Assembly (NCBI GenBank): GCA_022360055.1
Contig: JAKSDO010000072.1
Span: forward strand, 1-47,502
Direction: 5' to 3'
Origin: Cytophagales bacterium
GTDB lineage: Bacteria; Bacteroidota; Bacteroidia; Cytophagales; Cyclobacteriaceae
Length of the DNA stretch: 47,502 nucleotides
The position numbers were made by a program, and so were the translations under genes. Numbering within the stretch: position 1 is the stretch's first letter; each line of letters opens with the position of its first letter. Positions 25,811 through 47,502 of this stretch are shown in pieces. The notes under the pieces are model-generated. The model was not told the origin of the DNA. It made no database searches and saw only the letters and a program-made list of their open reading frames with translations.

Positions 25811-25927
25811 ATGAAACCGGTAGGACCGGAGCAAATTCAGGATACACACGAGCACGACTATATTGCTCTGTGCGTCAGCATTATATTGCTCTGTGCGTCA
25901 GCAAACTATAAAAATATAAACGGATGA
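25811..25927 (+). CDS. Small ORF within element copy A (38 codons)
   Basis: The left ATGAAA opens a frame (KPVGPEQIQDTHEHDYI and so on) that stays open through the element and its internal duplication. It ends at a TGA overlapping the ATG of the lamin-tail gene (ATGA). The same frame is open in copy B, and of five differences in the shared first 23 codons four are synonymous. The peptide is not recognised. Whether it is translated, or is a relic of a longer coding source, cannot be told from sequence alone. Confidence 0.35.
   Translation: MKPVGPEQIQDTHEHDYIALCVSIILLCASANYKNING
25857..25902 (+). repeat. 23-bp tandem duplication inside element copy A
   Basis: Two consecutive units (25857-25879 and 25880-25902) share TATATTGCTCTGTGCGTCAG (20 bases of each) and differ at one base near their left end. 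Copy B at 38.5 kb has a single unit, so the duplication occurred in copy A. Confidence 0.85.
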
Positions 25928-28509
25928 AAGGTTGTATATTTTTTTTATTGTTTCTCCAATACGCCACATGTTATCCTGCCAAAGCCCAAATCAGCGATGA
26001 TTTTTCCGATGGTAACTTCAATGAGCATCCGGCTTGGCACGGGCAGACAACAAGGTTTATCGTCAATTCTGAAAATCAATTGCAATTGAGCGCACCCCCC
26101 GAGGCTGGTCATTCGTATCTGAGTACTGCATGTGAAGTTATCAATAACGCCGAATGGAGCTTTTATATAAAGCTGAAATTCAATCCGTCGTCAAGAAACT
26201 ATATGGATGTTTACCTGGTTTCCGATACACAAGATTTAAGCGCTCCGTTAAATGGCTATTTTGTAAGGATCGGAAACTCCCAGGATGAAGTAAGTCTTTA
26301 CAAGCAGTCCGGAGATAAATCAACTGCCGAGAAAATCATTGATGGCATGGACGACAGGGTTGACATGAGCACGGTAGAATTAAATGTCAAAGTCTCGAAA
26401 AACCATGAAAGTGAATGGGAATTGCTGGTTGACCCCGATTTGAATCAATCCTTTATTTCTGAAGGGAAGGTAAACGACTCGGATCATTTTTATTCAAGGT
26501 TTTTCGGAATCTATTGCAGTTACACGTCCACTCGATCCGATAGGTTTTTCTTTGACGAATTGTTTGTTTCAGGAGATGCTTTCATCGATTCGACTCCCCC
26601 GGCGGTAGATACATTGATCGTTTTATCCGATTCTACCGTTAAGATTTTGTTCAACGAAAAAATGAGGATTATCACGACAGAAAATTCCGGCAACTACTTT
26701 GTAAATCGCGGTATAGGAAGCCCTCATCAAATAGAGATAATTTCGGATTCAACCGCTTTATTATACTTTAATACAAAGTTTGAGCATACCGGTGAATATC
26801 AAATTTCCATTCATGGAGTTGAAGATTTGTTCGGAAATTCGATAAACAATCTGGTCGTGAATTTCAACTTCACAGCGCCCTACGTTATCGCCTTTGGTGA
26901 CATTCTAATTACGGAAATCATGGCAGATCCAACGCCCGGAGTTGACCTGCCGGAATACGAGTACCTGGAAATTTATAATCCCAAAAAAGAAACCTTTGAT
27001 TTGCATCAGGTCTCCCTGATCGTAGGTAAGGATACCGCCCGCATTCCGGATTTATCAATCAAACCGCGAGAATTTATCATACTTTGCCGGCACGCCGCAG
27101 TAGAACACTTTTTGAACATCGGAAGAACATTAAAAGTCACCAATTGGCCAACATTGAATAACCGGGGCGAACAAATTATTCTTGTCAACAAATTTGAAGA
27201 GATCGTCTGTGCTGTTGATTATGAAGATACCTGGTACAAATCTATCGAGAAAGACGATGGAGGATATTCATTGGAAATGATTGATCCCGATTTCCCATGT
27301 AAAGGACATGAAAACTGGAGCGCTTCTATGGACCCGTCGGGCGGAACCCCCGGAAAAAAGAATTCCGTCGCAACAGACCTGACGGACCTGTCAGCGCCGG
27401 AGATTGGAAAAATCACGACCACCTCCGGTTTGTCAATCGCAATAAATTTAAATGAAAATGTGGGACCACAGGAAATTTTATTAGAAGACGTTTCGATTAA
27501 TCCTCATTTAGACGTTACAGAAATCATGCTTCAAAAACCTGATTTTTCGGAAATATACATAAAACTGGGTAATGAAATCAAAACAAAAACCAGTTATGAA
27601 TTGACATTAAGGAATCTCACTGATTGTGCGGGTAATATCCAAAAAGCGACCAGCTCAACTTTTGTACTTCCGGAATTAGCCGACCGCCTCGATCTGATCA
27701 TCAACGAAATTCTTTTCAACCCAAAACCGGACGGTGTTGATTTTGTTGAAATCTACAATCAATCTGAAAAGTTTATTGATCTGAAAGACTGGACATTAGC
27801 TAATAAGGATACCTTATTGATCGGCGTACAACCTTTTATTCTGGAGCCCGGGCAATTTCTGGTAATAACCGAAAATTTTAATACTCTTAATAACCATTAT
27901 CCCGGAGTGGAACACGATCACGTACTGGAGGTTGAACGGCTTGTCGACTTCAATGACGATCAGGGCGAAGTCAGGTTGATGAGCAGTATGGGGCAAACCA
28001 TTGACTTCTTTCAATACAAAGAAGATTTTCACTCCGCTTTTTTAAACGATATCGAAGGAGTTTCGCTGGAACGAATTTCGTTTGATGCACCGACAAACGA
28101 ACCTGCAAATTGGCATTCCGCGGCCGGTACTGTTGGTTTTGCCACACCCGGGAGGATGAATTCCCAATTTTTATTGAGCAGTACGCCCAGCGAAGAGGTT
28201 GTGGTCGAACCTAAAGTTTTTGCACCGGGAAACAATGGATTCTATGATTTTACAGCAATTAAATGCAGGTTTTCTTCTCCCGGAAACATGGCCAGCATTC
28301 AGATTCTCGACCCGGTTGGAAGAAAGATAAAATCGATCATTTCACATCAATCCATCGGGGCTGAGGAAAATTTCAAATGGGAGGGATTAAATGATCGGGG
28401 CGAGGAAGTACAGATGGGGCCGTATATCGTTTTTCTTGAGATTTATAATGCCAAAGGATTAAGAAAAACATATATAAAAAAGGTAGTAGTTGGTAAAAAG
28501 TTAAATTAG
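25924..28509 (+). CDS. Secreted lamin-tail-domain protein
   Basis: This is an 861-residue exported protein. A signal peptide (1-~21, ending AKAQ) is followed by a concanavalin-like N-terminal domain (~25-215). A SbsA-type Ig-like domain then starts near STPPAVDTLIVLSDS. The first lamin tail domain starts at ~323 (ILITEIMADPTPG), a second Ig-like segment follows, and the second lamin tail domain starts at ~588 (LIINEILFNPKPDGVDFVEI). The FlgD-like/C-terminal part (~765-861) contains IQILDPVGRKIKS. Such multidomain proteins are typical T9SS or cell-surface cargo of Bacteroidota. No classical TIGR04183 ending is evident, so the export route is inferred. Its ATG is the right-hand repeat of a small inserted element. 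Confidence 0.85.
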   Translation: MKGCIFFLLFLQYATCYPAKAQISDDFSDGNFNEHPAWHGQTTRFIVNSENQLQLSAPPEAGHSYLSTACEVINNAEWSFYIKLKFNPSSRNYMDVYLVSDTQDLSAPLNGYFVRIGNSQDEVSLYKQSGDKSTAEKIIDGMDDRVDMSTVELNVKVSKNHESEWELLVDPDLNQSFISEGKVNDSDHFYSRFFGIYCSYTSTRSDRFFFDELFVSGDAFIDSTPPAVDTLIVLSDSTVKILFNEKMRIITTENSGNYFVNRGIGSPHQIEIISDSTALLYFNTKFEHTGEYQISIHGVEDLFGNSINNLVVNFNFTAPYVIAFGDILITEIMADPTPGVDLPEYEYLEIYNPKKETFDLHQVSLIVGKDTARIPDLSIKPREFIILCRHAAVEHFLNIGRTLKVTNWPTLNNRGEQIILVNKFEEIVCAVDYEDTWYKSIEKDDGGYSLEMIDPDFPCKGHENWSASMDPSGGTPGKKNSVATDLTDLSAPEIGKITTTSGLSIAINLNENVGPQEILLEDVSINPHLDVTEIMLQKPDFSEIYIKLGNEIKTKTSYELTLRNLTDCAGNIQKATSSTFVLPELADRLDLIINEILFNPKPDGVDFVEIYNQSEKFIDLKDWTLANKDTLLIGVQPFILEPGQFLVITENFNTLNNHYPGVEHDHVLEVERLVDFNDDQGEVRLMSSMGQTIDFFQYKEDFHSAFLNDIEGVSLERISFDAPTNEPANWHSAAGTVGFATPGRMNSQFLLSSTPSEEVVVEPKVFAPGNNGFYDFTAIKCRFSSPGNMASIQILDPVGRKIKSIISHQSIGAEENFKWEGLNDRGEEVQMGPYIVFLEIYNAKGLRKTYIKKVVVGKKLN

Positions 28510-38007: not shown

Positions 38008-38336
38008 TTTTTTAAATTTATGGTTTGAAAAGTTCCTTCTTTACTGCAAAACCGGACAGGTGCATTTACTGAGCAGGTGAAGTTTAAATGCGTTCGTAGC
38101 ATAGCGCGAAAGTAAAGACGGAATCACCGGAGCCCAAAAAGTACATATTATCAGTAGATTAAATCGTTTTGATGAATATGGCATCCGTGTTAACACCAAG
38201 ATAACATGATTTTTGGTAAACATTTATAATCAACAATTTAATGACCATGGCATTTTATGATGTCGGGTGTTAAGTATAATTTAATTAAGCCTTAATCAAC
38301 AGGTAATCACATTTTCGCGTATCTGCATATTTTTGA
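38008..38336. other. Gene-free spacer
   Basis: The spacer is 329 bp between divergent genes. A TATTTTTG box (38328-38335) is almost adjacent to the ATG at 38337. No other features were recognised. Confidence 0.4.
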
Positions 38337-38484
38337 ATGAGAATTTTAAAACGTATTGGTTTGAAGGTCTCCACAAAACAGCACACGACCGATGATGAAC
38401 TATTCTCCGATATTAAAGCCGGGGAAAAATACCGGATCAGAATTGATGATATCAACCGACGAGACGATCATTTTGCAATTAAGG

Positions 38485-38579
38485 TTTCATCTGTTTATAT
38501 TTTTCAGGTTGCTGACGCACAGAGAAATATAATCATGCTCGTGTGTGTCTTGAATTTGCTCCGGTCCTACCGGTTTCAT
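38485..38579 (-). mobile_element. Short dispersed element, copy B (inverted relative to copy A)
   Basis: The 83-bp insert (38491-38573) is the reverse complement of copy A at 25.8 kb, flanked on both sides by TTTCAT (ATGAAA on the leftward strand); the wider repeat is GGTTTCATC. CCGGTCCTACCGG (38561-38573) corresponds to the inverted repeat of copy A. It splits a PA14 gene and contains a 30-codon leftward frame (38579 to 38487) that ends in TGA overlapping the distal ATGAAA. Confidence 0.75.
38487..38579 (-). CDS. Small ORF within element copy B (30 codons)
   Basis: Read leftward from ATG 38579-38577 the frame begins KPVGPEQIQDTHEHDYI, as in copy A, and ends NLKNINR and stop. It lies antisense to the broken PA14 gene. 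Its relation to copy A is described under findings. No homology is recognised. Confidence 0.3.
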   Translation of the reverse strand: MKPVGPEQIQDTHEHDYISLCVSNLKNINR

Positions 38580-38885
38580 CCTATTTGAAAATAGATCGAC
38601 CGGGAGATTATCGCTTTTATTTAGCATCGGATGATGGGAGTAAATTGTATATCAATCGCCGAATCGTTGTCGATAATGATGGTGATCATGGTGTGTTGGA
38701 GCGCTCCGGAGATATAAAACTGAAGGCGGGTTTGGCCCTGCTGGAAGTGGAGTACTTTAATAAAAGCGGAGGAACATGGCTGGATGCCTATTACAAAGGC
38801 CCGGGAATTCCCAAGCAAATCATTCCGGCAGACCGACTTTTTTTGACAAAGGCCAATAGCTAACCCATATTATAAATTCAAAGCA

Positions 38886-46573: not shown

Positions 46574-47502
46574 TCACTTTTTTATTAATTTGATAAAGCC
46601 ATTATTTACTTTGAGTATATATGAACCCGGGGATAAAAACCGGGCGTTTACTTCACGACCCGAAGGCCTGGTTTTATAGACTAAGTTACCACGCAAATCA
46701 TAGATCCAAATATTTAGGGCTTCTTTGTCTTGAGTGGCAATTTTAAATCGTCCCAAGACCGGATTGGGATAAATTTGATAGTTCTCGGAATCTGCCTCAC
46801 CTAAGCCCGTGATCGAGTTTATCGTAAGTTCACCGGAAACATAAATGAAATCATAATCATTGTCCTGTCCGCCAGCCAAAGTGATTTCATAAACACCCGG
46901 GCCACTGGATATATCTGCAATACAAGAAGCTATAGGTTTAGTGTTGATGACCTCTTCTGTTTCATTGTTTACAAATCCGGAGTACGTTATCGAAAATTCT
47001 GGATTGACCTCACCAACAACTCTTATTTTGTCATCAGCCTCAGCTGTTAATATTGCTTTGGCTATTGTCAATTGATCGTAGACTGAACCAATGAAATTCG
47101 AGTCGTTTATTATTGCCATTACTTCATAATTTCCGCTATTGCGAGGCGGTTCGTCTGATCCATCATATGTAATATGAACCGGCAAGCCTTCAGGATCTGT
47201 GGTAGCGGTTACGGGTTTGGAAATCCCATCATAGGTCGCCTCGAGGTCACCGAGTCGCACTGTTGCTGGGGCCTTGTGAATTACCAATTGACCCCTTGCT
47301 GTCCCATCATAGTTCGCATCTTCGATCGTTCCGGCCACTTCATATGAACCGGCATTTACGGGTGGTGCGTCTGCTCCACTATATGTAATATGAACCGGCA
47401 AGCCTTCAGGATCTGTGGTAGCGGTTACGCGTTTTGGACTCCCATCATAGGTTGCCTCAAGGTCACCGAGTCGCACTGTTGCTGGGGCCTTGTGAATTAT
47501 CA
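46574..47502 (-). CDS. MBG-domain repeat protein with T9SS sorting domain, 3' part (5' truncated)
   Basis: The leftward frame is open to the window edge at 47502, so only the C-terminal ~309 residues are seen. It contains repeats of 72 residues (for example LGDLEATYDGSPKRVTATTD, then EGLPVHITY), an MBG_2/YDG-type bacterial surface repeat. The nucleotide copies at 47181-47291 and 47397-47502 differ at only a few positions. A further MBG-like domain follows (NPEFSITYSGFVNNE). The final ~80 residues carry a type-A T9SS sorting domain: YQIYPNPVLGRFKI, a WIYDLRGNLVYK strand and the end GSYILKVNNGFIKLIKK. It is a secreted adhesin-like protein. Confidence 0.9.
   Translation of the reverse strand, partial: IIHKAPATVRLGDLEATYDGSPKRVTATTDPEGLPVHITYSGADAPPVNAGSYEVAGTIEDANYDGTARGQLVIHKAPATVRLGDLEATYDGISKPVTATTDPEGLPVHITYDGSDEPPRNSGNYEVMAIINDSNFIGSVYDQLTIAKAILTAEADDKIRVVGEVNPEFSITYSGFVNNETEEVINTKPIASCIADISSGPGVYEITLAGGQDNDYDFIYVSGELTINSITGLGEADSENYQIYPNPVLGRFKIATQDKEALNIWIYDLRGNLVYKTRPSGREVNARFLSPGSYILKVNNGFIKLIKK

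Follow-up and report, generated by a model that had tools for sequence, protein, structure and literature searches.

A short ATGAAA-bounded element, probably mobile and non-autonomous, at start codons of a Cytophagales genome

Two copies in opposite orientation and their host genes

The window, i.e. the whole analysed stretch of 47,502 nucleotides, is contig 133 of an assembly of 7.55 Mb in 300 contigs (G000, in the following the own genome) and raises the question why two similar short segments lie there in opposite orientations, each enclosed by two ATGAAA words, one directly in front of a gene and the other inside a coding run. A repeat search confirmed this arrangement, which had been pointed out in a sequence-only reading of the same DNA: apart from the copies at 25811-25929 (copy 1, plus strand) and 38485-38579 (copy 2, minus strand), it returned no inverted repeats of at least 30 nt in the window. 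The paired stretches have 82 nt with 90% complementarity and 34 nt with 88%. The features are listed below, with the basis of each assignment in brackets.

25811..25816, plus strand: 5' ATGAAA word of copy 1 (sequence)
25817..25829, plus strand: head hairpin hp1 of copy 1, CCGGTAGGACCGG (sequence; stem conserved across the family)
25840..25902, plus strand: variable middle of copy 1 with the second hairpin region and a 23-bp internal doubling (sequence; spacing)
25903..25923, plus strand: A-rich tail of copy 1, AAACTATAAAAATATAAACGG (sequence; tail profile)
25924..25929, plus strand: 3' ATGAAA word of copy 1, predicted start codon of the lamin-tail gene (sequence; ORF)
25924..28509, plus strand: host gene of copy 1, 861 codons, with lamin tail domain and Ig-like domain (ORF; domain matches)
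38335..38863, plus strand: PA14-type coding run split by the antisense copy 2, upstream limit uncertain (collapsed translation; Pfam)
38485..38490, minus strand: 3' ATGAAA word of copy 2, TTTCAT on the plus strand (sequence)
38561..38573, minus strand: head hairpin hp1 of copy 2 (sequence)
38574..38579, minus strand: 5' ATGAAA word of copy 2, TTTCAT on the plus strand (sequence)

The spacing of the two words is 113 in copy 1 compared with the usual 90 bp, because a 23-bp stretch is doubled (about 25857-25879 and 25880-25902), and 89 in copy 2. It had also been proposed that dropping one ATGAAA together with the insert restores a natural sequence. This holds for the gene start at copy 1 and for copy 2, where collapsing leads to a single frame (...HFAIKVSSYLKIDRPGDYRFYLASDDGSKLY...) with an uninterrupted PA14-like run; the part downstream of the insert (38543-38860) matches PF07691 with 2.3e-12. 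The assumed terminal CCGGT/ACCGG inverted repeat turned out to be a single hairpin at the 5' end, and the other end of the window copies (AAATATAAACRG) does not match this hairpin. At its very end the window also contains two head-to-tail copies of a 216-nt unit with 74% identity (47044-47475).

Family size, anatomy and a second family

The number of copies by far exceeds two. The head pattern occurs 265 times in the own genome (132 and 133 matches on the two strands) compared with a single match for the reversed control. With ATGAAA included, the pattern gave 255 matches in G000, 25 in G001, 3 in G003 and 4 in G004 and none for the control in these genomes. Any match to this pattern was present in 10 of 196 genomes of the host family, and the six matching genomes outside the genus contributed one match apiece, at the mismatch limit. 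Using blastn with copy 2, matches were obtained in 6 of 59 genomes (G000, G001, G003, G004, G005 and G015, the last from a different genus); the congeners G002 and G006 gave no match. Four congeneric genomes carry diverged copies, and plasmid and phage collections yielded no element match at the sensitivity used. Copies of this family, termed CCGG in the following, differ by 9.7% from their own consensus and those of a second family, termed CAGG, by 6.4%. The median nearest neighbour is 91.7% identical for CCGG and 93.4% for CAGG, and a near-identical pair is absent, as the best pair reaches 96.7%. This divergence indicates that the burst of copies was not very recent and gives no sign of present mobility. 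Heads without the usual body and tail were seen in a Labilibaculum MAG contig (L339, 5905-5931, exact over 27 nt) and in G001 (L340).

The anatomy of the unit is based on 126 CCGG copies with a tail, taken from 1.56 Mb of contigs and from the hit loci; copies less than 40 bp from the start of a stretch or less than 220 bp from its end were excluded from the copy tables, as were heads without a recognisable tail (5 in one table and 11 in another, several of them spurious). The ends are fixed: both words are 87-91 bp apart in 122 of the 126 copies and exactly 90 bp in 74, and ATGAAA is found as 5' word in 97 and as 3' word in 98 of them. The consensus of 52 copies reads ATGAAA CCGGTAGGACCGG AGCAAATTCAGGACACACACGAGCATGATTATATTTCTCTGTGTGTCAGCAACCTAAAAAAATATAAACGG ATGAAA.

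Directly beside the 5' word is the nearly invariant hairpin hp1, whose pairing is kept across both families by compensatory changes. At pair 2, 124 of 126 CCGG copies have C-G and 20 of 22 CAGG copies have A-T. Pair 5 is C-G in 21 of 22 CAGG copies and distributed as T-A (86), C-G (12), C-A (22) and T-G (6) in the 126 CCGG copies. A comparison of 96 copies, located via the body and not via the head, revealed 0.8% differences per site in the four stem pairs, 17% in the loop and the fifth pair and 14% in the body. If the private rate is taken as half the nearest-neighbour distance, the stem has 4 changes compared with about 24 expected (P 4e-7), and the level is equally low at start sites (4/584) and at other sites (3/368). 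A use of hp1 after insertion is suggested by these numbers, and we leave it at a suggestion because singleton changes number 1 in the stem and 35 in the body. A second hairpin is typical for the subfamily of this genome (mean z -2.2 in 52 copies). We rejected it as a conserved part of the unit, since its pairing is near the shuffle level (91.1% vs 90.3% of cells; 5 double changes vs a shuffle mean of 2.6 and maximum of 7) and is not kept in 22 copies from relatives (mean z -0.56); the consensus fold of the 52 copies retained hp1 alone.

Rickettsia palindromic elements are coding inserts that preserve the reading frame, and an insert of this type, adding about 30 residues, would fit the frequent 90-bp spacing, a consensus that is open in frame with the 3' ATG, and the open copy in front of hisS (L025). 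The substitutions in the 52 copies are spread over the codon positions without bias (142/116/144), in-frame stops are present in 21 of the 52, and the CAGG units have 91 bp. Moreover, open copies that would permit an in-frame fusion were found at 15 of 56 gene starts compared with 16 of 39 sites elsewhere. Owing to the missing codon-position bias and the many stops a coding function was rejected; unlike the Rickettsia element the unit looks non-coding, and we regard an in-frame insert as extremely improbable.

The CAGG family has the same plan in other letters (ATGAAA CAGGCCATGCCTG ... TTTTAAACAC ATGAAA; spacing 91 in 21 of 22) and is represented by 63 heads in G000, with none for the control. 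Arrays of two or three elements that share a word are present at 24 of 120 sites. CAGG units are in arrays with CCGG elements at 25 of 28 sites (L302-L331 and the sampled contigs of G000); for this count 30 of the 63 loci were inspected, three arrays were read from the tail before the first unit, and L303 and L322 are possibly one site at overlapping contig ends. The CCGG partners of CAGG do not cluster (pairwise identity 0.809 and 0.733 compared with about 0.77 for random), which argues that the pairs probably arose repeatedly, and for the same reason we rejected the pair as one composite transposon. The excess of CAGG beside CCGG is not accounted for by random insertion at ATGAAA and is the least explained part of the analysis.

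Start codons as insertion places

To describe the insertion places, the 120 sites were reduced to 82 on contigs by dropping those less than 1.5 kb from a contig end or known solely from hit loci. The 82 sites comprise 52 gene starts, 24 intergenic positions and 6 positions in sense frames, compared with 278 gene starts, 369 intergenic positions and 1618 positions within genes for the 2265 ATGAAA words of this DNA that have no element. Sites assigned to the in-gene class may be true starts if over 40 open codons precede them. The odds ratio for gene starts is 12.4 (p 6e-26), and 2.9 (p 2.8e-5) against intergenic words alone, in contigs and segments that were chosen for listed copies or Y1 genes and that also provided the background words. 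Much of this excess is the expected outcome of losing in-gene insertions. In relatives, a tail could be recognised at 23 sites, 19 of which are followed by an ORF of at least 60 codons, and 6 more heads are tail-less. The genes behind the element are unrelated to one another, and one of them encodes histidyl-tRNA synthetase (hisS).

Which of the two words serves the gene can be approached by the retention of the ATG at 95 sites with single CCGG elements. The 3' ATG is intact at 54 of 56 start sites compared with 31 of 39 sites elsewhere (p 0.014), and the corresponding numbers for the 5' ATG are 47 of 56 and 31 of 39 (p 0.60). As only the 3' ATG is preferentially kept at starts, the host gene most likely uses this one. 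According to PMC6847099, Bacteroidetes lack Shine-Dalgarno sequences, and in Flavobacterium johnsoniae A at positions -3, -6, -12 and -13 together with low structure favours initiation. At 75 start sites the tail provides A at -13 (97%), -12 (99%) and -6 (96%) and C at -3 (95%), so it would fit a start-codon context; its conservation is equal at start sites and elsewhere, which gives no sign that it was selected as a start signal. The promoter motif TAnnTTTG in the 60 nt before the 5' word showed nothing notable, with 4 of 75 starts and 0 of 36 intergenic sites compared with 20 of 278 element-free starts and 129 of 5000 random 60-mers.

Sixteen G000 genes that start at the 3' word entered a comparison with orthologues, for which a subset of the orthologue matches was fetched; this gave 38 same-genus places for 11 of these genes, the start being left unfixed by the alignment at L253, L255 and L256. 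At 37 of the 38 places the upstream stretch of at most 200 nt is free of heads of both families. Of all 38 places, 24 open exactly with ATGAAA. The element is present in one orthologue, a G001 gene at C203:151667. For hisS, the leader (atcatttttaatta...tagttttg...gaaatt) is situated within about 20 nt of a single start codon in the relatives, and in G000 it immediately precedes the 5' word. The same picture was obtained for the permease, S41 peptidase and dehydrogenase genes, where the related leader abuts one start codon. At L023 none of five relatives has ATGAAA (three ATGAAT, one ATGGAT, one unaligned at the start); here the ancestral word is not readable from the relatives. The empty places of the whole comparison come from other species of the genus.

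These empty places also bear on the idea that the copies are cis-regulatory RNA leaders, i.e. attenuators or riboswitches, of vertically inherited genes. The majority of the examined copies do immediately precede a gene and share its orientation, and the low rate of change in the hp1 stem compared with the body may mean a use after insertion. Nevertheless, such leaders are very unlikely given the absence at nearly all orthologous places, copies that are intergenic or antisense within a gene, the unrelated genes, the word repeated at both ends and the lack of an Rfam match in 5 loci.

In our view, the unit is with high probability an interspersed mobile element of the non-autonomous kind. It has a length of about 84 bp, and its site-specific insertion at ATGAA(A) would leave it enclosed by two copies of this word; we read the ATGAA start codon as its tolerated niche. 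The observations behind it are the many copies with their fixed ends, the sites that are empty in relatives, word-sharing tandems, one insertion into a coding run and the gene-start excess. The sequence-only reading had already proposed that a small mobile element without an own transposase lies between matching 6-bp sites; copy number and empty orthologous places support this core, and the link to start codons and the interleaved second family had been missed there. A trans-acting enzyme would recognise the head hairpin and the tail and join the element into ATGAA. Given that ATGAAA is common as a gene start, many insertions would fall between a leader and its start codon; they would survive because the 3' word remains the start codon and the A-rich tail replaces the native sequence preceding the gene, while in-gene insertions would be lost. 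The cost of a start-site insertion should be small in Bacteroidetes due to the lack of Shine-Dalgarno sequences.

If this is right, the start codon, which is available at a large share of genes, serves a mobile element as a safe site. Many genes, including the one for histidyl-tRNA synthetase, could thereby receive a structured leader together with a new context of their start without being broken. Expression could then be altered genome-wide, and the insertions would represent a natural replicated test of start-codon choice in a phylum without Shine-Dalgarno signals. It would also point to a mobilising enzyme with a target of 5-6 bases.

Candidate mobilisers and known systems

Four Y1 matches are present in G000, and no element head of either family was found in or beside 48 fetched Y1 loci of G000 and relatives. 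Heads were also absent from 3 IS110 loci of relatives, IS110 itself being absent from G000. TnpB was not detected in 7 genomes with positive controls, and the search for HEARO gave no match in 12 genomes with likewise silent controls and is weak for this reason. No transposase with the ends of the element was encountered in the loci searched. No autonomous element was found in 1.56 Mb, about one fifth of the genome; a strict tail search of the same DNA revealed two head-less tails, one cut at a contig end and one an isolated match (L266).

IS200/IS605 elements have hairpins at both ends and enter a short fixed word, leaving the target bases unduplicated. We tentatively put forward a narrower version of our explanation, an IS200/IS605- or REP/RAYT-like element that a Y1 HUH transposase moves in single-stranded form. 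In a bottom-strand reading, hp1 would then be the right-end hairpin abutting TTTCAT as the cleavage word, and the target word would be TTCAT at the opposite end. This is in line with the short specific target word, the absence of a terminal inverted repeat, the hairpin beside one end with compensatory changes between the families and the Y1 proteins encoded in the genome. In addition, positions 5-6 vary more in the 3' word (13 of 148) than in the 5' word (4 of 148, p 0.043), a weak hint that the element brings its 5' word and does not owe both words to target duplication. Against it stand the conservation of hp1 alone, with the second hairpin lost in the 22 copies from relatives, and the lack of any Y1 gene flanked by the element in the 48 loci, the sequence read covering about one fifth of the genome. 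REP/RAYT systems share the high-copy small hairpin units, the lack of terminal inverted repeats and a short target or guide word. Their rules in PMC6006769 require a foot that reads GTAG or GTGG and 7-20 bp in the basal stem. In our element such a foot is absent, ATGAAA is directly before a stem of 4-5 bp, and one hairpin is conserved.

A tyrosine or serine recombinase, or a bcr1-type activity, has about the same limited probability as the Y1 transposase. ATGAAA would be the crossover word, from which direct repeats as well as tandem accretion would follow, and the identical word at both ends, the word-sharing arrays and the CAGG units that nearly always adjoin another element point in this direction. 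On the other hand, a core of 6 bp is short, and inverted sites of the arm type were not seen beside the word. The strong gene-start association sets the element apart from bcr1, for which we know of none. By description, it also differs in the word (ATGAAA instead of TTTAT), the sequence, the phylum and a length of about 90 bp. The repeats of the Bacillus cereus group, defined (PMC6542083) by bcr sequences and the word TTTAT, resemble it in the short word at both ends, the lack of an own transposase and the restriction to a lineage, a likeness of kind and not membership. What these two possibilities leave over, a share of similar order, goes to a mobiliser that is neither a HUH (Y1) single-strand transposase nor a bcr1-type recombinase.

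MITEs mobilised by DDE transposases have terminal inverted repeats and are short, non-autonomous and flanked by a short direct repeat. Our element is similar in all of these features except the first, as its ends (CCGG... and ...AAACRG) mismatch. The target word of HEARO/IscB is probably of a similar type, but the unit is far below the 211 positions of the HEARO model, and the 5 loci compared with Rfam gave no match. In an open-access literature search (REP/RAYT in Bacteroidetes, bcr1, ATGAAA target, HEARO, start-site repeats) this element was not described among the matches listed.

A bolder reading, which we consider rather unlikely, is an unrecognised system with the start codon as its natural target. 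It would insert between leader and ATG, return the start codon and exchange the preceding sequence for an A-rich initiation region of its own, i.e. it would be a parasite exploiting the lack of Shine-Dalgarno sequences, with CAGG riding on the first family and the hairpin used after insertion.

Some further loci with genes of the IS200 and RAYT type were noted. In G001 (L333, L337, L080), a block AAAGCCTCTAAAATCC is located directly before two element heads and also upstream of an IS200-like transposase gene. In G000, two RAYT-like genes (L091 on C265 and L092 on C59) have hairpin families of their own (GTCTTAGCGAGACGCTAAGAC; CTGTCGGAT...ATCCGACAG) that are unrelated to the element. At L101 (G005:C158, about 680-1480) a RAYT-like gene lies between two near-identical copies of a gene start (TTTTTTAAACT ATGAAA ATGATT...), as if the insertion had duplicated a longer stretch.
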